Origin: Gammaproteobacteria bacterium
GTDB taxonomy: Bacteria; Pseudomonadota; Gammaproteobacteria; GCA-001735895
NCBI GenBank assembly: GCA_022340305.1
Contig: JAJDOF010000023.1
Location: 1 to 64,000 of the forward strand
Length of the DNA stretch: 64,000 nt
Reading direction: 5' to 3'
In this document: in pieces, positions 33,985-44,513 of the stretch
Layout: the number at the start of each line of letters is the position of its first letter
Numbering within the stretch: position 1 is the first letter of the stretch
Translations under genes and position numbers: made by a program
Notes under the pieces: generated by a model
Databases searched by the model: none
The model's input: only the letters and a program-made list of their open reading frames with translations
Told to the model about the DNA's origin: nothing

Positions 33985-34317
33985 CTAGACGCAGCCCGTG
34001 GGCTTGGGCAGCCCTGCATACTTACAGGCCTGCTTGGCAGGACCGTAAGGAAACAGTTCATAAAGATACTTGCTGGTACCCTTGTCCTTGCCGAGTTTCT
34101 TGCCGACGGCCTTGGTGAGCACGCGCACGGCGGGTGCAATCTGGTACTCCTCGTAATAATCGCGCAGGAAATTGATGACTTCCCAGTGATTTTCATCGAG
34201 GGTGGCACCATCGGCCTTGGCCATTGCGGTAGCGAGCTGATCATTCCAGTCGCTTAGATTGACGAGATAGCCTTCTTCGTCGGTCTCGTATGATTTTCCG
34301 TCCAGTTCAATACTCAT
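33985..34317 (-). CDS. dsrC: DsrC, sulfur-carrier substrate protein of DsrAB
   Basis: 110 aa from the ATG at 34317, which has AGAGGTAG just before it; the frame extends to 34338. The family core DEEGYLVNLSDWNDQLA and HWEVINFLRDYY is followed by the flexible arm with both redox cysteines, CKYAGLPKPTGCV, the last Cys being next to the C-terminus. Both cysteines mark a true DsrC, not TusE. It carries persulfide sulfur to DsrAB and forms the trisulfide. Confidence 0.96.
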   Translation of the reverse strand: MSIELDGKSYETDEEGYLVNLSDWNDQLATAMAKADGATLDENHWEVINFLRDYYEEYQIAPAVRVLTKAVGKKLGKDKGTSKYLYELFPYGPAKQACKYAGLPKPTGCV

Positions 34318-36645: not shown

Positions 36646-37905
36646 TTACGAGGCCTGCTTTTGCTCGGCCTTGCGGTCGAACCATTTCTTGGCTTCGATA
36701 TCCCAGTCATCCATGCGTACATAGGAACTGGTGCGGGTCTCGGCAATCATGTTGGGGTCAACTTCGACGCCGATGCCTTCGAGAAAATTAACCAGTCCGA
36801 TGCGCTCGACCATTTCACCGCAGCGCTCGTGTTCGAGACCGTTCTCGGCCCAGTAGTCGATGACTTCCTCGGCGAGTTCAGTCAGGGTTTCGTAATCAGC
36901 CTCGTCTTCCAGTTTCATGAAGGGGACGATCACGGTGCCCATCAGGTCGCCGATTTTGAGCGTGCGCTTGCCACCCATCAGGATGGTTACGCCTTTGTCA
37001 TCGCCAGGCGATAGCGCCTTCGGTACCACGTTGAGGCAGTGCATGCAGCGCACGCAGTTACGGTTGTCGACACTGAGCGAATCGTCATCGTTCAATGACA
37101 GGGCATTGGTCGGGCAGCGCGTGATGATGTTATCGATGGTGTGCTGACGGCCTTTCTTGCCGACATATTCCTTGAAGGCCTGCTGGTCGACCTTCATGTC
37201 ATCGCGCCAGGTGCCGATGATGGCAAAGTCGGAGCGCTCGATCGAATTCATGCAGTCATTGCCACAACCGGAGACCTTGAACTTGAACTTGTAGGGCAGG
37301 GCGGGCCGGTGTACGTCATCGGTGAAATTGTTGAGCAGGGTACGATGCACTTTCATCTCATCGACACAGGACTGCTCGCAACGCGCCGCGCCGACGCAGG
37401 ACATTCCGGTGCGCACGCAGGGGCCGGCGCCGCCGAGGTCGAAACCGTATTCGTTAATCTCGTTGAAAAAATGCTGGGTGTTTTCAGTCGAGGTGCCGAT
37501 GAACATGATATTGCCGGTCTGGCCGTGAAAGGTGACCAGGCCTGAGCCGTATTTCTCCCAGCTATCGCCCAGCTGGCGCAACATGTCGGTGGTGTAATAA
37601 TTGCCGGCGGGGGGCTGCACCCGCAGCGTGTGAAACTCTTTCGATTCCTCGAAGGCATGCGCTACTTCGGAAAAACGCGGGATAATACCGCTGCCGTAGC
37701 CGTAGACACTGACCGTGCCGCCCTTCCAGTAACCCTTGCGGGTTTCGTAGGAATGCTCCAGCTGGCCGAGCAGGGAGTTGGCCATGCCGTTGATGCGATC
37801 GTCCTGGTGTTCGTCGCGCAGGCGCTTGATGCCGGAAATGAAACTGGGCCAGGGGCCGTTCTCGAGTTCATCGAGCATCGGCGTGACATGTGCTTTTTTA
37901 GCCAT
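36646..37905 (-). CDS. dsrA: Dissimilatory sulfite reductase alpha subunit, reverse type
   Basis: 419 aa from the ATG at 37905, preceded by AGGGAAT; an upstream ATG at 37938 gives residues unlike the family. Siroheme-[4Fe-4S] cysteines are in CVGAARCEQSC and GCGNDC, and a ferredoxin domain in CVRCMHCLNV. It is the first gene of the 14-gene dsr run. The next 360 bp contain its promoter region, shared with the divergent TauD-like gene. Confidence 0.97.
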   Translation of the reverse strand: MAKKAHVTPMLDELENGPWPSFISGIKRLRDEHQDDRINGMANSLLGQLEHSYETRKGYWKGGTVSVYGYGSGIIPRFSEVAHAFEESKEFHTLRVQPPAGNYYTTDMLRQLGDSWEKYGSGLVTFHGQTGNIMFIGTSTENTQHFFNEINEYGFDLGGAGPCVRTGMSCVGAARCEQSCVDEMKVHRTLLNNFTDDVHRPALPYKFKFKVSGCGNDCMNSIERSDFAIIGTWRDDMKVDQQAFKEYVGKKGRQHTIDNIITRCPTNALSLNDDDSLSVDNRNCVRCMHCLNVVPKALSPGDDKGVTILMGGKRTLKIGDLMGTVIVPFMKLEDEADYETLTELAEEVIDYWAENGLEHERCGEMVERIGLVNFLEGIGVEVDPNMIAETRTSSYVRMDDWDIEAKKWFDRKAEQKQAS

Positions 37906-38265
37906 AGTGTTATTCCCTAAATCTGCGTAAGCGATCAATCCTGGGTGATTATCGGAATCGAAGTCCAGAAAACCACCGAGTTGTCTGTTGAATTTTATAG
38001 ACCCGGTTAAACGTCATGATCGAACGGTAGTTTGTTGCAATCACGCCTGATCGACCATCCCCCGCATGGGGTGCACGAAATATGCCGCTTATCCCCATTG
38101 AGATAGGTGTTTGCCACAGGATTCGAAAGCATAACTGTCTCACTGGCCTAACTCGGGATATTAGTGATAAAAATCAATGCGTTGTCAGTCCAGACTGAAT
38201 GCGCTCAAATCCCCTCCCGATGGGATGCTCCATTTGCGCCGCGGCTGTAATAGAATCGACGCCTA
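37906..38265. promoter_or_regulatory. Divergent control region between dsrA and the TauD/Cas6/DsrC-like cluster
   Basis: 360 bp without a plausible gene, AT-richer than its surroundings. It must carry the promoters of the dsr operon and of the plus-strand cluster. The one clear motif is the FNR-like box at 38164-38177. A possible -10 for the plus-strand gene is TAGAAT just upstream of the TTG start, with no good -35. Confidence 0.6.
38164..38177. promoter_or_regulatory. FNR/CRP-family box, one mismatch
   Basis: GTGATAAAAATCAA; read on the minus strand it is TTGAT-TTTT-ATCAC against the FNR consensus TTGAT-N4-ATCAA, with one mismatch. It lies about 260 bp before dsrA and about 90 bp before the TauD-like start, so it is better placed for the latter. 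A perfect copy precedes tusA. Confidence 0.55.
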
Positions 38266-39252
38266 TTGAATCCTGAATCTATCTGCAAGCAACTGGATTT
38301 GAACCCAACAGTAGACCATATGAACGCTGTACTCAACCATTGCGAAGAAAACTCGCCTTACCTGCTGGCAAACGAAGAGGCCTACCAGGACTGGCGCAGT
38401 AGCAAACTCGAAAATCGTGGTCAAGTCACACCGTTGCGTGTTTTTACGCTCAACGCGCAGGGGTTGTTGGCGGAATCCCAGCTGGCAGCAGCGCAACAGC
38501 AGGTTGAGGCCTATAATTTCGTTATTTTCGAGGTGCCGTCAAGAGATTTTAGCAAGCACGATTTTGTTACGCTAAACCGTCAATTCGGCCTGCACGACCT
38601 CGATGATAATCTTGGCGCCGATGCTGATAAGGTGACCGCGCTGCGCGTGGTCGATGAAGCCGATCAGCGTGCGCAATACATTCCCTATACCAACCGCGCG
38701 ATGAACTGGCATACCGACGGCTATTACAATCCGCATGCGCGGCGCATCAACGCGTTTAGCCTGTATTGTGTCAACCAGTCCGCACGCGGTGGCGGTAATT
38801 TCCTGTTTGATCATGAAATGATGTACTTGCTGATCCGCGACCAGTCACCCGAGTTGCTGGAAGCCCTGATGCGCAACGACCTGATGCGAATTCCTGCCAA
38901 TGTCCAGAATAACCGGGTGATTCGCGCCGAGGAGACGGGGCCGGTATTTGCGCTACAACCCATTACCTGTGCGCTCAATATGCGCTTCACCTCGCGCCCG
39001 CACAATATCGTGTGGAAAAGCGATAAATGCAGCCAGCAAGCGCTTAATCTGGTGCGTGAAATCCTGATGCAAGGGGAGGCGATGATCGAGATACGTCTGT
39101 GCGCGGGCCAGGGCATTATCTGCAATAATATACTGCACGGCCGCGAGGCCTTTCAGGATGACCCGCAACATCCCGCGCGCCTGGTTTACCGCGCGCGATA
39201 TTACCAGGCGATCGACTTCGCGCGGGGCCTGGGCGCTCAATCGACGGTATGA
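38266..39252 (+). CDS. TauD/TfdA-like 2-oxoglutarate/Fe(II) dioxygenase
   Basis: 328 aa from a TTG at 38266; an ATG at 38320 would shorten it by 18 residues and is possible. The Fe-binding facial triad is recognisable: His and Asp in NWHTDGYYN (about residue 148-151) and a distal His in ILHGREAF (about 290). An Arg near the C-terminus (RLVYRARYYQ) suits 2OG binding. TauD relatives release sulfite from sulfonates, but the substrate here is unknown. It heads the plus-strand cluster and lies 10 bp from the Cas6-like gene. Confidence 0.85.
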   Translation: MNPESICKQLDLNPTVDHMNAVLNHCEENSPYLLANEEAYQDWRSSKLENRGQVTPLRVFTLNAQGLLAESQLAAAQQQVEAYNFVIFEVPSRDFSKHDFVTLNRQFGLHDLDDNLGADADKVTALRVVDEADQRAQYIPYTNRAMNWHTDGYYNPHARRINAFSLYCVNQSARGGGNFLFDHEMMYLLIRDQSPELLEALMRNDLMRIPANVQNNRVIRAEETGPVFALQPITCALNMRFTSRPHNIVWKSDKCSQQALNLVREILMQGEAMIEIRLCAGQGIICNNILHGREAFQDDPQHPARLVYRARYYQAIDFARGLGAQSTV

Positions 39253-39262
39253 ATCGTTCCAC

Positions 39263-39961
39263 ATGACTACAGAAAATTTATTCTGGCGTGAAGCTGACGA
39301 GCCCGAAACCAGCTTTCAAGTTTCCGACGAGGTCTATGACCTGGTGTTCAGTCTGCGCGGCAGCAAGCTCGAGATCGATCATGCCTTTGTGCTCGCCGAA
39401 GCCCTGAAGTCCCGTCTGGCGGCCGAGACCTGTGCTCGCATCGGCGTCCACGGGGTGCACATGGCGGCCTCTGGCAATGGCTGGACCCGGCCGCAGCAAA
39501 GCGATACGGAAATGCCGCTGTCGCGACGCGCCCGGCTTGCCATCAGGCTGCAGCGTAAGGACCATGAGGAGGTTGCAGGCATCAGTGATCAAACCCTGCA
39601 ACTTGGCGGGCAACAACTGCAAGTCGGTGCCAGCTCGATGCGCAAGTTATCGAGCATGGCCAGCCTCCATGCACGGGCTATTTGCTGCGACCCGGATCAG
39701 TCCGAGCCGGAATTCCTGGCGCAGGTCGCAGTTGATTTACAGCGGCTCAACATCAAAGTGACGCGCATGATTTGCGGGCGCAGTGGAGAAATACGCAGTA
39801 AGCGCGGGACCCTGTTTACGCGTGCACTGCTGATCGCCGACCTGAAGCCCGAAGCGTCAGTTCGACTGCAACAACAGGGGCTGGGTGAGGCGCGTCTGCT
39901 GGGTTGTGGGTTGTTTGTGCCACACCGCGGGATCGATCCCGTTTACACGGCCCAGGAATAA
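39263..39961 (+). CDS. Orphan Cas6/Cmx6-type (I-MYXAN) RAMP-fold protein
   Basis: 232 aa from the ATG at 39263. The sequence matches the Cas6/Cmx6 pattern: YDLVFSLRGSKLEIDHAFVL at the start, RRARLAIRLQ, then LQVGASSMRKLS, and a C-terminal Gly-rich loop SVRLQQQGLGEARLLGCGLF followed by VPHRGI. Cas6 proteins are ferredoxin-fold endoribonucleases that process CRISPR transcripts. No array, cas1, cas2 or effector gene is in the window, so this copy probably binds or cuts another RNA. A His near residue 40 (EIDHAFV) is where the family has its catalytic-region His. It lies between a TauD-like and a DsrC-like gene. Confidence 0.8.
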   Translation: MTTENLFWREADEPETSFQVSDEVYDLVFSLRGSKLEIDHAFVLAEALKSRLAAETCARIGVHGVHMAASGNGWTRPQQSDTEMPLSRRARLAIRLQRKDHEEVAGISDQTLQLGGQQLQVGASSMRKLSSMASLHARAICCDPDQSEPEFLAQVAVDLQRLNIKVTRMICGRSGEIRSKRGTLFTRALLIADLKPEASVRLQQQGLGEARLLGCGLFVPHRGIDPVYTAQE

Positions 39962-39995: not shown

Positions 39996-40337
39996 ATGGG
40001 TTTTACGATTGATGGCCGAGAAATTGCGACTACTGACAGTGGATACCTGGAAAATCTGGAGGACTGGTCGAGCGAACTTGCCGGCCTGATCGCCGTCGAG
40101 GAGGGTATCGAGCTCACACAGCGTCATTGGGACGTGATTCATTACCTGCGGGATGAATATATCAATAACGGCGCCAACCAGCCGAATACGCGAACCCTGG
40201 TCAAGGCCATGAGCCGCTGCTGGAGCGACAATAGTATCAGCGCAAAGACACTGTACGACCTGTTTCCGGGTGATCCGAGCAAACAGGGTGGTAGAATTGG
40301 CGGATTACCGGAGAGCCGTCGCAAGGGTGGTTACTAG
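39996..40337 (+). CDS. DsrC/TusE-family protein lacking both redox cysteines (RspA-like)
   Basis: 113 aa from the ATG at 39996, with TTTTAGGAG upstream. It aligns with DsrC along its length (IDGREIATTDSGYLENLEDW; HWDVIHYLRDEYINNG; TLYDLFPGDPSKQGG), but the C-terminal arm GLPESRRKGGY has neither cysteine. It cannot carry sulfur the DsrC way. Cysteine-free members have been grouped as regulatory DsrC-like proteins (RspA). A DNA-binding or protein-binding role is an inference. Its partner genes are the Cas6-like and 67-aa genes. Confidence 0.88.
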   Translation: MGFTIDGREIATTDSGYLENLEDWSSELAGLIAVEEGIELTQRHWDVIHYLRDEYINNGANQPNTRTLVKAMSRCWSDNSISAKTLYDLFPGDPSKQGGRIGGLPESRRKGGY

Positions 40338-40378: not shown

Positions 40379-40582
40379 ATGACTGAAAAACAGGAAATCA
40401 TCAAACAGATGCTGGATTTACAGCATAAGTTTATCGAACTCGAGCAGCGTGGCGAGTTTTCTACCGCGGAATATTACGATTCCGAGGGTGATACCGAGCT
40501 GGCGCGGCACAAGCGTAGCTTCGAGGAATTGTCGACCAAACTGGTGGACCTGGCGCACGCGGATAAGGGATCAAAGCGCTGA
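40379..40582 (+). CDS. 67-aa soluble hypothetical protein
   Basis: Starts with GTGAGGA about 8 bp upstream. The sequence is charged and helical (EKQEIIKQMLDLQHKFIELE; ELARHKRSFEELSTKLVDLA), probably two helices forming a hairpin or coiled coil, with no cysteine. It follows the DsrC-like gene by 41 bp and is the last gene of the cluster. I do not recognise a family. A role as a partner of the DsrC-like or Cas6-like protein is only suggested by position. Confidence 0.7.
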   Translation: MTEKQEIIKQMLDLQHKFIELEQRGEFSTAEYYDSEGDTELARHKRSFEELSTKLVDLAHADKGSKR

Positions 40583-40649: not shown

Positions 40650-41321
40650 TTAGGAGTCGGCCCACATGCGGAACAGGTTGGCGTAGCAAAGGTTGACCTT
40701 GCGATAGCTTTCGGCATTGCTATCTCCGGCCAGCAAGCTGCGTGCCTGATCGAGCTGTAACAGGATTTCACGCTGATCGGCTCGTCGAATGTGGCTTTGT
40801 ACCCAGGTTACCGCGACCAGTCGTTCCCCGCTATTCACCGCGGTAACAGCGTGATAGCAGGTCGACGGGTACAGCAGGGCGCTACCGGCCGCTAGCTTGT
40901 AAGTCTGACTGCCGTTGGCCGTTTCGATGCACAGTTCGCCGCCGTCGTATTCCTCGGGTGCGTTGAGGAAAATACTGATCGATATATCGGAGCGATAGCG
41001 TGCTCCGGGTGCACCCATGATCGGGTCGTCGATGTGACCAGCGTATTCCATACCGGCGAGGTAGCGTGCATAAATGGGGGCGCTGATTTTTGCCGGCAGC
41101 GCAGTTTGCAGATAGACAGGGTGTTGAACCAGCGCGGTCATGACGACGTTATTGAGGGCCTCGAAGCGCTCGGCGTTGGCACGGAGTTCGAGATTGTTCT
41201 TGCCCTGGCGGGCATCATTGCCGGCGCTCAGTCTACCGTCGACGAATTCGCCCTGGCGCAGGACGGAGCACAGGGCCTCGAGTTGCGCCGGGGTCAGCAG
41301 GTCAGGAATTGTTACTACCAT
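40650..41321 (-). CDS. PKHD-type 2OG-Fe(II) hydroxylase, PiuC/YbiX family
   Basis: 223 aa, the usual length of this family. The Fe ligands are His and Asp in GHIDDP (about residue 95-97) and a distal His in TCYHAVTAV; an Arg in SGERLVAV binds 2-oxoglutarate. PiuC-type genes usually lie next to TonB-dependent iron receptors, which are absent here. It starts only 16 bp from the divergent 107-aa gene. Confidence 0.88.
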   Translation of the reverse strand: MVVTIPDLLTPAQLEALCSVLRQGEFVDGRLSAGNDARQGKNNLELRANAERFEALNNVVMTALVQHPVYLQTALPAKISAPIYARYLAGMEYAGHIDDPIMGAPGARYRSDISISIFLNAPEEYDGGELCIETANGSQTYKLAAGSALLYPSTCYHAVTAVNSGERLVAVTWVQSHIRRADQREILLQLDQARSLLAGDSNAESYRKVNLCYANLFRMWADS

Positions 41322-41337
41322 GATTTTGGGAAGCCAT

Positions 41338-41661
41338 ATGAACGTTACTGTTGAGATCCATGATAAGAGTTACGTACTCAATGTGCCAGAAGCGCTGATG
41401 CTCGAAGCGATCGAGTTTTTTGAGAAGATGGACAAGGACATGAATTGCGGCTGGCAGATGAGCCGCTGGTGGGTGCCGGACCCAGATCAAAACCAGCGTT
41501 GCCAGATCGTCGCTGACAAACTGCTCACCGCGATGCAGCAGGACAATAGCGAGTTTGCCTTGCTTATGGCGGCTTATATCCTGACTAACAAACCCAACAC
41601 CCGCCGTATCCGTATCAATACCGACGGCGAAATCCAGGGCAACGAATTCCTCGACGAGTAA
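41338..41661 (+). CDS. 107-aa hypothetical protein
   Basis: The ATG at 41338 has GGGAAG upstream; an ATG at 41320 in frame would add six residues. Acidic, soluble, with a mid-region MDKDMNCGWQMSRWWVPDPD rich in Trp and Met, and a short helical part LADKLLTAMQQD-like. No known domain was recognised. It is divergent from the PiuC-like gene and may belong with the sulfur-oxidation neighbourhood. Confidence 0.65.
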   Translation: MNVTVEIHDKSYVLNVPEALMLEAIEFFEKMDKDMNCGWQMSRWWVPDPDQNQRCQIVADKLLTAMQQDNSEFALLMAAYILTNKPNTRRIRINTDGEIQGNEFLDE

Positions 41662-42056: not shown

Positions 42057-42638
42057 TCAGGCGAAGACTACCCAGGTGGTGGCGATGTACTTGTGGCCGG
42101 ATAGCAGGGTGTTGCCGCGATGCAGATGTGTCCAGAAGGGGGGGAATAGCAACAGCTTGCCGGCTTTCGGGGTAATGCTTACCTGCTGATATTTAAATTC
42201 GGTTTCGCCACCCTGGCCGTCGAGATCGTTCAGATACCAGATGGCGACCAGCTGCCGTGCGGCAAATTCGTGGCTGCCGCCATCGATATGCCAATGATAG
42301 AACTCACCGGGGTCGGTACGCTGAAGCGCGTAACCCATGTCCTTGAAGGGCCCGGCGAAAAAGGGATAGTGTTCCCTGAATTCCGCCAACGCCCGGTTCA
42401 GCGAGCGAAACAGTTCGCGATCGAGGTCCTGCCAGTGAGGCTTGCCACTCATCACCAGGTCGGTCGAGCGTTTGATCGAGTCGTCGTGCTGTGCGTTCTG
42501 ACCGATTCGTCCCGGGTATTGATCGTCGCTGCAGCGTTCGAAACGGTCGATCATTTCCCGGCAGATATCAAGCGCGAGCGCGGCGGGTTGTTCGAAGACG
42601 AAGCTGCCGGGGGTGACTTCGCTGATGATCGGGTTCAT
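42057..42638 (-). CDS. 2OG-Fe(II) oxygenase, prolyl-4-hydroxylase-like
   Basis: 193 aa. Fe ligands His and Asp in YHWHIDGGSHEF (about 116-121), distal His in PPFWTHLHRGN, and a late Lys or Arg near HKYIATTW for 2-oxoglutarate. Related to a set of small P4H-type proteins that may modify proteins or small metabolites. Together with the genes at 38266 and 40650 it makes three such oxygenases within 5 kb. The 5' neighbour starts about 190 bp away divergently. Confidence 0.85.
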   Translation of the reverse strand: MNPIISEVTPGSFVFEQPAALALDICREMIDRFERCSDDQYPGRIGQNAQHDDSIKRSTDLVMSGKPHWQDLDRELFRSLNRALAEFREHYPFFAGPFKDMGYALQRTDPGEFYHWHIDGGSHEFAARQLVAIWYLNDLDGQGGETEFKYQQVSITPKAGKLLLFPPFWTHLHRGNTLLSGHKYIATTWVVFA

Positions 42639-42827: not shown

Positions 42828-43625
42828 ATGACAACTAAATCATCTTTTTCAATATTGCTGCTATGCCTTACGGCGACGTTTATCACGCCGCTGGCCGCGA
42901 GCGAATCCGATACCGCGAAAGAGCTGCGCTGGGCAGAGCAGGTCGTCGATGGTCTGCTCGATGGTGATGATCTCTGGCTGGAAGACGGCTCCGGGCATGA
43001 ATTCCTGGGTATCCTGACCGAAGGTAATTCCACGAGTGGGCGCGCGGTATTGCTGATGCACGGCATCGGCGTGCACCCGAACTGGCCCGACGTTATCTAT
43101 CCGTTGCGCAGCGGCCTGCTCAATCACGGCATTACCACTTTGTCGATACAGATGCCGATCCTTGCCAATGGCGCCGACGAGCGCGAATACCTGCGCCTGT
43201 TACCCGAAGTGGCCGGCCGTATCGATGCGGCCCTGGACAGTCTTGCTGCCGGCGGATACTCCAACGTGGTGCTGGTGGGACACAGCATGGGTGGCTCGAT
43301 GATGATGCATTACCTGTCGGGTAATCCCTCCAGCGCGGTCACCTCTGTGGTGGCGATCGGTATCGGCGCAGGCGTTGGCGCGAGGACCGTTGGCGTCGAA
43401 AATATCGATGCGCTGAAGAAGGTCAGGGTGCCGGTGCTCGATCTGTACGGTAGCGAGGATCTCGATACCGTGTTGAGTTCGGTCGCTGAGCGCGCCGCGG
43501 CGGCGACCGGGGTGCCTGAATATCGGCAGATTCGCGTTATCGGGGCGAATCATTCTTTCCAGGGCCAGGAGGCCGCGTTGGTACAAAACGTGTTCGAGTG
43601 GCTCAACGCGCAGTCCAGGCCTTAG
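42828..43625 (+). CDS. Secreted alpha/beta hydrolase, DUF3530-like
   Basis: 265 aa with a signal peptide ending in ITPLAAS. The nucleophile elbow is VLVGHSMGGSM, the oxyanion segment is VLLMHGIGVHP, the acid is in VLDLYGSEDLD, and the His in GANHSFQG completes the triad. A periplasmic esterase or lipase-like enzyme of unknown substrate. A decayed relative of its C-terminal part lies at 53884-54208. Confidence 0.8.
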   Translation: MTTKSSFSILLLCLTATFITPLAASESDTAKELRWAEQVVDGLLDGDDLWLEDGSGHEFLGILTEGNSTSGRAVLLMHGIGVHPNWPDVIYPLRSGLLNHGITTLSIQMPILANGADEREYLRLLPEVAGRIDAALDSLAAGGYSNVVLVGHSMGGSMMMHYLSGNPSSAVTSVVAIGIGAGVGARTVGVENIDALKKVRVPVLDLYGSEDLDTVLSSVAERAAAATGVPEYRQIRVIGANHSFQGQEAALVQNVFEWLNAQSRP

Positions 43626-43633
43626 GACGCAAC

Positions 43634-44194
43634 ATGGTACGGGTCAAGAAACGCTGGAATCAACACGCGGCACCGCGTTCGTTGGCGCAGATGGCGAATG
43701 CGATCAGTTCGACCGTCTGGAAGCTTGCCGCCGATGTCGTGTTGAATCTCGAAAATGAAAACTTCGAAACCTCGACGCAAGGCCAGCGGGTAGACCTGCT
43801 GGAGGAACTGGCTTGCTACCTGGTGCACTATTGCGATCGTTGGGTTTACAGCCGAACCAGCCAGGAGCAGCGCAGCGAGTTTATCGACTGCCTGGTGCGC
43901 GACATGGCGCGCCTGCTCGAGGATAGCCGAGTGGATGTTCAGGGTAGCGGACACTACCAGGCGGCTTTTATCGACAAGCTCAATCAACGTTCTGCAGACT
44001 ATGCAGCCTTTAGCTACAGCGAAGAGGATGGTTGCAGTTTTGCGATGCGTTGCCGGCTTGGAGAAAAGGTGCGGGCCACCATGGGGCTTCGAGATGAACG
44101 CTGGATCCCCGACTATATCGTTGGCCGCGAGGCTCCAGCGGTCGAGACGGCGTTGCAGCGCTCACTGACCGGCCTGGTCAGGATCGACAGTTAG
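43634..44194 (+). CDS. 186-aa hypothetical protein, helical
   Basis: Starts at the ATG at 43634, nine bases after the hydrolase stop; an upstream ATG at 43598 overlaps the hydrolase. The protein is mostly helical with LLEELACYLVHYCDRWVYSR and CLVRDMARLLEDSR, no membrane segment and five cysteines. It resembles small conserved proteins of unknown function; I do not recognise a family. Co-transcription with the hydrolase is likely from spacing. Confidence 0.65.
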   Translation: MVRVKKRWNQHAAPRSLAQMANAISSTVWKLAADVVLNLENENFETSTQGQRVDLLEELACYLVHYCDRWVYSRTSQEQRSEFIDCLVRDMARLLEDSRVDVQGSGHYQAAFIDKLNQRSADYAAFSYSEEDGCSFAMRCRLGEKVRATMGLRDERWIPDYIVGREAPAVETALQRSLTGLVRIDS

Positions 44195-44215: not shown

Positions 44216-44413
44216 CTAGGACTCGGCCCAGTTGGCAAAGTTTTCCGTGGATTTGGCACTGCCATCATCATAGCCTGCCTGGTAGGCTTCCGTGACACGC
44301 TGCTCTTCACGCAGGGGATGACCCAGAAATCCACCTTGCCAGCCCAGGATGTACTCCTGCTGGACCTTCATCTCTTCCATTTGAGTTATTGCGTCTCGAT
44401 AGGCCTGGTTCAT
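44216..44413 (-). CDS. 65-aa hypothetical protein
   Basis: Starts at the ATG at 44413. It is acidic and helical: MNQAYRDAITQMEEMKVQQE, then the Gly-rich LGWQGGFLGHPLREEQ and AYQAGYDDG. The last part is vaguely like ribosome modulation factor, but too short a match to claim it. It lies downstream of the yeeE-like gene on the same strand, after the stem-loop at 44514-44533. Confidence 0.6.
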   Translation of the reverse strand: MNQAYRDAITQMEEMKVQQEYILGWQGGFLGHPLREEQRVTEAYQAGYDDGSAKSTENFANWAES

Positions 44414-44513
44414 GCGATTCTCCGTGAATGTTCGATATCTACAGTCAAAATTAAAGTCAATATATGGGGCGATTGCCGCGACCCCGGCGCAATCTGTAAT
44501 GGTCGGCAATTCC

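Follow-up and report, generated by a model that had tools for sequence, protein, structure and literature searches.

In the 64,000-nucleotide stretch of DNA analysed here (the window), we found two genes of the DsrC family, a canonical dsrC and a paralog denoted dsrCx, and these were the only two detected in the 86% complete assembly of the genome. The reading frame of dsrCx is open throughout and the encoded protein ends in PSKQGGRIGGLPESRRKGGY, followed by the stop codon. Its arm, KQGGRIGGLPESRRKGGY, contains no cysteine. The sole cysteine of the protein, C75, lies in the core and was found to vary among orthologs in the alignment. The protein matched the Pfam family DsrC (PF04358) with 110 bits against a cut-off of 24.9, and TIGR03342 with 91 bits against a cut-off of 53.5. 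Its AF2 model had a pLDDT of 89.6, with the last three residues disordered, and the top PDB match of the model was Allochromatium vinosum (A. vinosum) DsrC (1yx3, TM 0.87). dsrCx therefore belongs with DsrC by fold and by PF04358, but Gly99 and Gly112 stand in place of the two arm cysteines of DsrC (C-x10-C, the second penultimate). The translations and both family matches bear out what an earlier note on this DNA had claimed, namely a second DsrC-family protein without arm cysteines beside a dsrC with both, and the absence of both cysteines supports its view that this paralog cannot form the two-cysteine trisulfide.

Table 1 Genes and features at the dsrCx locus (positions in the window).
Feature	Position	Strand	Details
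Canonical dsrC, comparison gene	33985..34314	-	Arm end KQACKYAGLPKPTGCV, both Cys present
dsrA, first gene of divergent dsrABEFHCMKL	36646..37905	-	TIGR02064, 610 bits
dsrA/tauD divergent intergenic region	37906..38265	.	Alignment of same-genus loci
TauD-like Fe(II)/2-oxoglutarate dioxygenase at dsrQ position	38266..39252	+	PF02668
Cas6/Cmx6-family protein, RAMP fold	39263..39961	+	PF09559, TIGR02807; ~34 bp upstream of dsrCx
Cys-less DsrC paralog dsrCx	39996..40337	+	113 aa; C-terminus ...GLPESRRKGGY
Tail PESRRKGGY of dsrCx	40308..40334	+	Near-invariant RKGGY; two-residue insertion relative to DsrC; Gly99 just upstream
s67, conserved 67-aa protein	40379..40582	+	No Pfam or NCBIfam family

dsrCx is the third of four genes on the same strand (tauD-like dsrQ, Cas6-like gene, dsrCx and s67), which run divergently from dsrA. 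The tauD-like gene is, by its place, the known dsrQ; a gene of this kind divergent from dsr is described in a passage of PMC7596348 citing Lenk et al. 2012. Its product has His149-x-Asp151, His291 and Arg305 conserved, so that the iron and 2-oxoglutarate residues are complete. The arrangement was found to recur in the majority of 41 loci, which come from many families, and also in most of 80 contigs, including one of Thioalkalivibrio denitrificans (L112). Among the loci with enough flanking sequence, the Cas6-like gene was located directly upstream of dsrCx in 61 of 73, tauD was upstream in 49 of 58, dsrA was divergent in 43 of 53, and s67 was downstream in 48 of 70. At three loci (L154, L155 and L157) the Cas6-like gene and s67 adjoin dsrA with dsrCx absent, suggesting that the Cas6-like protein can act without dsrCx. 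Two further loci (L158 and L163) likewise keep the Cas6-like gene and s67 with the DsrC variant missing between them. Some genomes carry orphan dsrCx copies away from cas6 and dsr. Given these orphans and the genomes without dsrCx, the pairing of dsrCx with the Cas6-like gene is strong but not obligatory.

Other genes of the region were also observed. Three different Fe(II)/2-oxoglutarate oxygenases are encoded within 5 kb, namely the TauD-like protein, a YbiX-like protein (40650-41321) and a 2OG-FeII_Oxy_3 protein (42057-42638), and homologs of all three were found near dsr in many families. The gene at 44216-44509 is a homolog of Alvin_2107 (NCBIfam name: globule sulfur oxidation protein). 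Two genes, at 41323-41661 (112 aa) and 43598-44194 (198 aa), match no Pfam or NCBIfam family and are conserved beside dsr in many families.

The Cas6-like protein scored 172.6 bits with PF09559 and 102.2 bits with TIGR02807 (cut-off 98.85), and by the NCBIfam equivalog cut-off its gene would be named 'type I-MYXAN CRISPR-associated protein'. Its AF2 model matched the Cas6 of a type I-B CAST (8fcu_B, TM 0.72). In the alignment, the Gly-rich loop was kept and His41 was invariant, making His41 a candidate endoribonuclease residue. The protein thus has the RAMP fold and Gly-rich loop of Cas6, but its gene has no link to a CRISPR-Cas locus, and its neighbours are dsr genes. Both genes were followed across the class in 102 genomes, with each family represented once and the window's own family left out. 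Of 37 genomes with dsrA, 35 had the Cas6-like gene, versus 2 of the 65 without dsrA (both genes in 35, Cas6-like alone in 2, dsrA alone in 2, neither in 63), and dsrCx and dsrA occurred together in 32, dsrCx alone in 1, dsrA alone in 5 and neither in 64; the p-values (~2e-22 and ~4e-20, respectively) serve as guides only, because the cut-offs were set by hand (dsrA above ~189 bits, variant above ~100 bits) and families do not count as independent observations. In the same 102 genomes the Cas6-like gene showed no association with cas1 (p 0.39); none was observed among 143 related genomes either, nor was cas1 found in the window's own genome (86% complete assembly). We therefore rejected a CRISPR function for lack of a link to cas1. 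A defence role was also rejected, since PADLOC matched only generic Cas6 models. The Cas6-like gene is a dsr accessory misnamed 'CRISPR-associated', and the dsrQ/tauD, Cas6-like, DsrC-variant and s67 operon, which the earlier note had missed, tracks dsrAB across the class.

Orthologs of dsrCx were identified in dozens of Gammaproteobacterial families and, outside the class, in a few genomes. None of them has arm cysteines, and their near-invariant end is -KGGY, usually as RKGGY. The scan that gave the 80 contigs had the tail itself among its search patterns, so the presence of the tail in 80 of 80 is biased; the unbiased evidence comes from a protein search of the 143 related genomes and from a 249-genome phylum sample. 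The protein search, which did not use the tail pattern, gave strong matches (above ~100 bits) in 63 of the 143 genomes, and these extend to residue 113, save one cut by a contig edge. The translated matches all end in KGGY, with one KAGY, and none has a cysteine at the two DsrC positions. This reach to the last residue, with the same ending throughout, excludes chance or error. In the phylum sample, the window's own genome and four genomes of other classes gave matches with the tail (187-195 bits), while matches to ordinary DsrC/TusE ended at about residue 105 with at most 114 bits. Among close relatives, the dN/dS of dsrCx was ~0.10.

To compare the arms, we aligned 97 variants with 37 two-cysteine sequences. 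The inner-cysteine position is occupied by Gly99 in 82% of the variants and the penultimate-cysteine position by an invariant Gly112. Relative to two-cysteine DsrC, the variants also carry two inserted residues (usually RK) and end in tyrosine. RKGGY was invariant in two alignments whose members are 47-81% identical to the window protein, one of 72 rows and one of 32 rows taken from the 143-genome search, and in the latter most of the core varied. Even two divergent class members, with a more DsrC-like arm, keep KGGY (GLPQPLGKGGY and GLPKPFGKGGY), together with the dsrA/Cas6-like neighbourhood. Residues K96, Q97, R52, R66 and K70, the FP pair and G-L-P are common to dsrCx and DsrC, which suggests common partner surfaces. 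Judging from these alignments, the arm of dsrCx is more than a cysteine-free remnant, in that its -KGGY tail is near-invariant and conserved in its own right, which the earlier note had missed.

The KGGY sequences grouped as one clade in a maximum-likelihood tree (support 99/93), separate from TusE and from two-cysteine DsrC, with the deep forks unsure because few columns were available. The Escherichia coli (E. coli) TusE row was a sequence entered by hand and the other TusE rows came from genomes. dsrCx has no penultimate cysteine of the TusE kind, and it scored 87 bits with the TusE equivalog, a model whose cut-off of 191 was not reached in any of 56 class genomes. Sister to the KGGY clade was another group of Cys-less DsrC sequences, with the conserved C-terminus RTKGEH (94/83; L189, L195, L226, L227, L231 and L232). 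Two sequences (L184 and L187) are fusions of two DsrC domains; the first half has no arm cysteine and the second half has the last one.

A copy of dsrCx was also found on an IMG/VR phage contig (L073:4974-5315, IMGVR_UViG_3300032087_002997). It is a Cys-less DsrC with the same tail and 70% identity, and nearby genes match a Mom-like DNA modification protein and a phage endonuclease. Kieft et al. 2021 (PMC8190135) describe five phage DsrC sequences without either cysteine motif.

The gap between dsrA and tauD contains three palindrome-like blocks conserved among same-genus loci, at 38056-38075 (CATCCCCCGCATGGGGTGCA), 38090-38107 (TATCCCCATTGAGATAGG) and 38214-38232 (CTCCCGATGGGATGCTCCA). For the intergenic regions of dsr within the genus, RNAalifold gave only weak or mixed structures, among which no conserved hairpin stood out as an RNA target for the Cas6-like protein, and a search of Rfam found nothing.

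Taken together, dsrCx clearly functions within the sulfur-oxidation system, most likely as a regulator or adaptor. The predicted fold, the loss of the arm cysteines, the KGGY tail, the clade, the operon and the co-occurrence with dsrAB suggest a non-redox DsrC paralog that would not carry sulfur but serve the reverse-Dsr system as an adaptor for docking or regulation, a mechanism that we infer with slightly less than even confidence. Sulfur binding by A. vinosum DsrC required Cys111 (PMC3397948), so loss of the penultimate cysteine should abolish it. Purifying selection on a tail that cannot hold sulfur on a cysteine argues for a specific binding contact; a weaker argument, from the Cas6-family protein encoded alongside, points to an RNA step. 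The conserved DsrC core could dock dsrCx on a partner of DsrC (DsrAB, DsrEFH or DsrMK) or on nucleic acid, and the KGGY tail could make a specific contact, either with the co-encoded Cas6-like protein or inside the channel that receives the DsrC arm in a Dsr partner. dsrCx would then couple dsr gene expression or activity to the condition of the sulfur-oxidation machinery, and the most plausible route would be that the Cas6-like protein binds or processes RNA. Counting against this reading are the genomes in which the Cas6-like gene or dsrCx occurs without the other, and the failure to find a conserved hairpin target near dsr in the genus. A bolder and rather unlikely form of this proposal is that the two proteins together regulate sulfur oxidation by binding or cleaving RNA, independently of CRISPR; here dsrCx would sense or report the Dsr state, the Cas6-like protein would process dsr or other transcripts, and phage would carry the DsrC-like part to steer it.

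It is also conceivable, though unlikely, that dsrCx is a competitor, one of the two roles (competitor or regulator) that the earlier note had suggested for it, and fills the DsrC site on DsrAB, DsrEFH or DsrK and throttles sulfur oxidation, with KGGY threading into the siroheme channel instead of the cysteine arm. The core residues, K96-Q97 and G-L-P shared with DsrC, the flexible tail of the AF2 model, the glycine exactly at the penultimate-cysteine position and the copy on a phage contig are consistent with such a decoy. However, most DsrC-specific positions are lost (for example, IAPAVRV became NQPNTRN), binding of A. vinosum DsrEFH depended strongly on Cys111 (PMC3397948), which is lost here, and a pure decoy leaves the Cas6-like partner unexplained.

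Somewhat less likely again is an RspA-type regulator that binds DNA at the dsrA-dsrQ promoter through the HTH-like helices of the DsrC fold. The palindrome-like blocks would fit this, as would the binding of A. vinosum DsrC to DNA upstream of dsr, which is cited in a passage of PMC5944118, but the palindromes may belong to another regulator and orphan dsrCx copies lie far from dsr. Foldseek gave a weak likeness to the winged-helix proteins LexA, PerR and Fur (prob 0.6-0.8, E ~0.5-1), and E-values near 1 are no evidence of homology.

We regard as improbable that dsrCx is a cysteine-less carrier scaffold, whose -KGGY end would be modified, or trimmed to GG and converted to a thiocarboxylate, perhaps with the co-encoded dioxygenase DsrQ or YbiX-like hydroxylases as the modifier. 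The extreme conservation of the last residues, the exact chain end and the complete iron and 2-oxoglutarate residues of the operon dioxygenase speak for it; against it, the terminal tyrosine is always present and the conserved neighbourhood showed no gene for an E1-like protein, a JAMM protein or a carboxypeptidase. Finally, although the NCBIfam family name covers TusE/DsrC/DsvC, we rejected the readings of dsrCx as a TusE (the tree places it outside TusE), as a decaying DsrC duplicate (dN/dS 0.10 and a conserved full-length end) or as a sequencing error (dozens of independent assemblies share the tail), which leaves them virtually no probability and settles the two objections that the earlier note had raised against itself, clustering with TusE and an error hiding a cysteine-bearing arm.

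In one of the main microbial routes of sulfur oxidation, DsrC is the central carrier of sulfur. That a Cys-less paralog is conserved and tied to dsrAB in many families implies that part of the core gene set of this pathway is not understood. The CRISPR-named neighbour that nonetheless tracks dsr makes an RNA-acting control layer in sulfur oxidation directly testable. Dsr surveys, those of phage genes among them, in which 'dsrC/tusE' is counted from family matches will mix the non-carrier dsrCx with true carriers.

Compared with known systems, dsrCx resembles A. vinosum DsrC (1yx3) in fold (TM 0.87), identity (~37%), core residues, the KQ and GLP of the arm and an adjacent dsr operon, but differs in having glycine for both redox cysteines, the two-residue insertion, the terminal KGGY and its own clade and operon. 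With TusE, from E. coli and other dsr-less genomes, it shares the superfamily TIGR03342, whereas TusE keeps the penultimate cysteine and falls outside the KGGY clade, the distribution of which follows dsr. Venceslau et al. are said to have described in 2014 RspA, DsrC homologs without both cysteines, as proposed regulators. dsrCx likewise has neither cysteine, and by this definition RspA may equal the KGGY clade, the KGEH clade or both. The Cys-less phage DsrC homologs of Kieft et al. 2021 are similar and L073 carries the KGGY variant, but the tail motif and the module are not reported in the part of PMC8190135 consulted. The tauD/dsrQ gene beside dsr in PMC7596348 corresponds to the first gene of the dsrCx operon, divergent from dsr, while the passage concerned does not mention downstream Cas6-like and Cys-less DsrC genes. 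The Cas6-like protein shares its fold, Gly-rich loop and a score above the family cut-off with Cas6/Cmx6 (type I-MYXAN; type I-B CAST Cas6, PDB 8fcj), but it tracks dsrAB instead of cas1 and adjoins dsr, outside any cas cluster. Our search covered open-access literature and found no description of the KGGY clade, the RKGGY tail or the module of dsrQ, Cas6-like gene and DsrC variant. Cys-less DsrC homologs and dsrQ are already known, and apparently new, as far as the open-access literature goes, are the KGGY signature, its clade and a Cas6-like partner tied to dsr and not to CRISPR.
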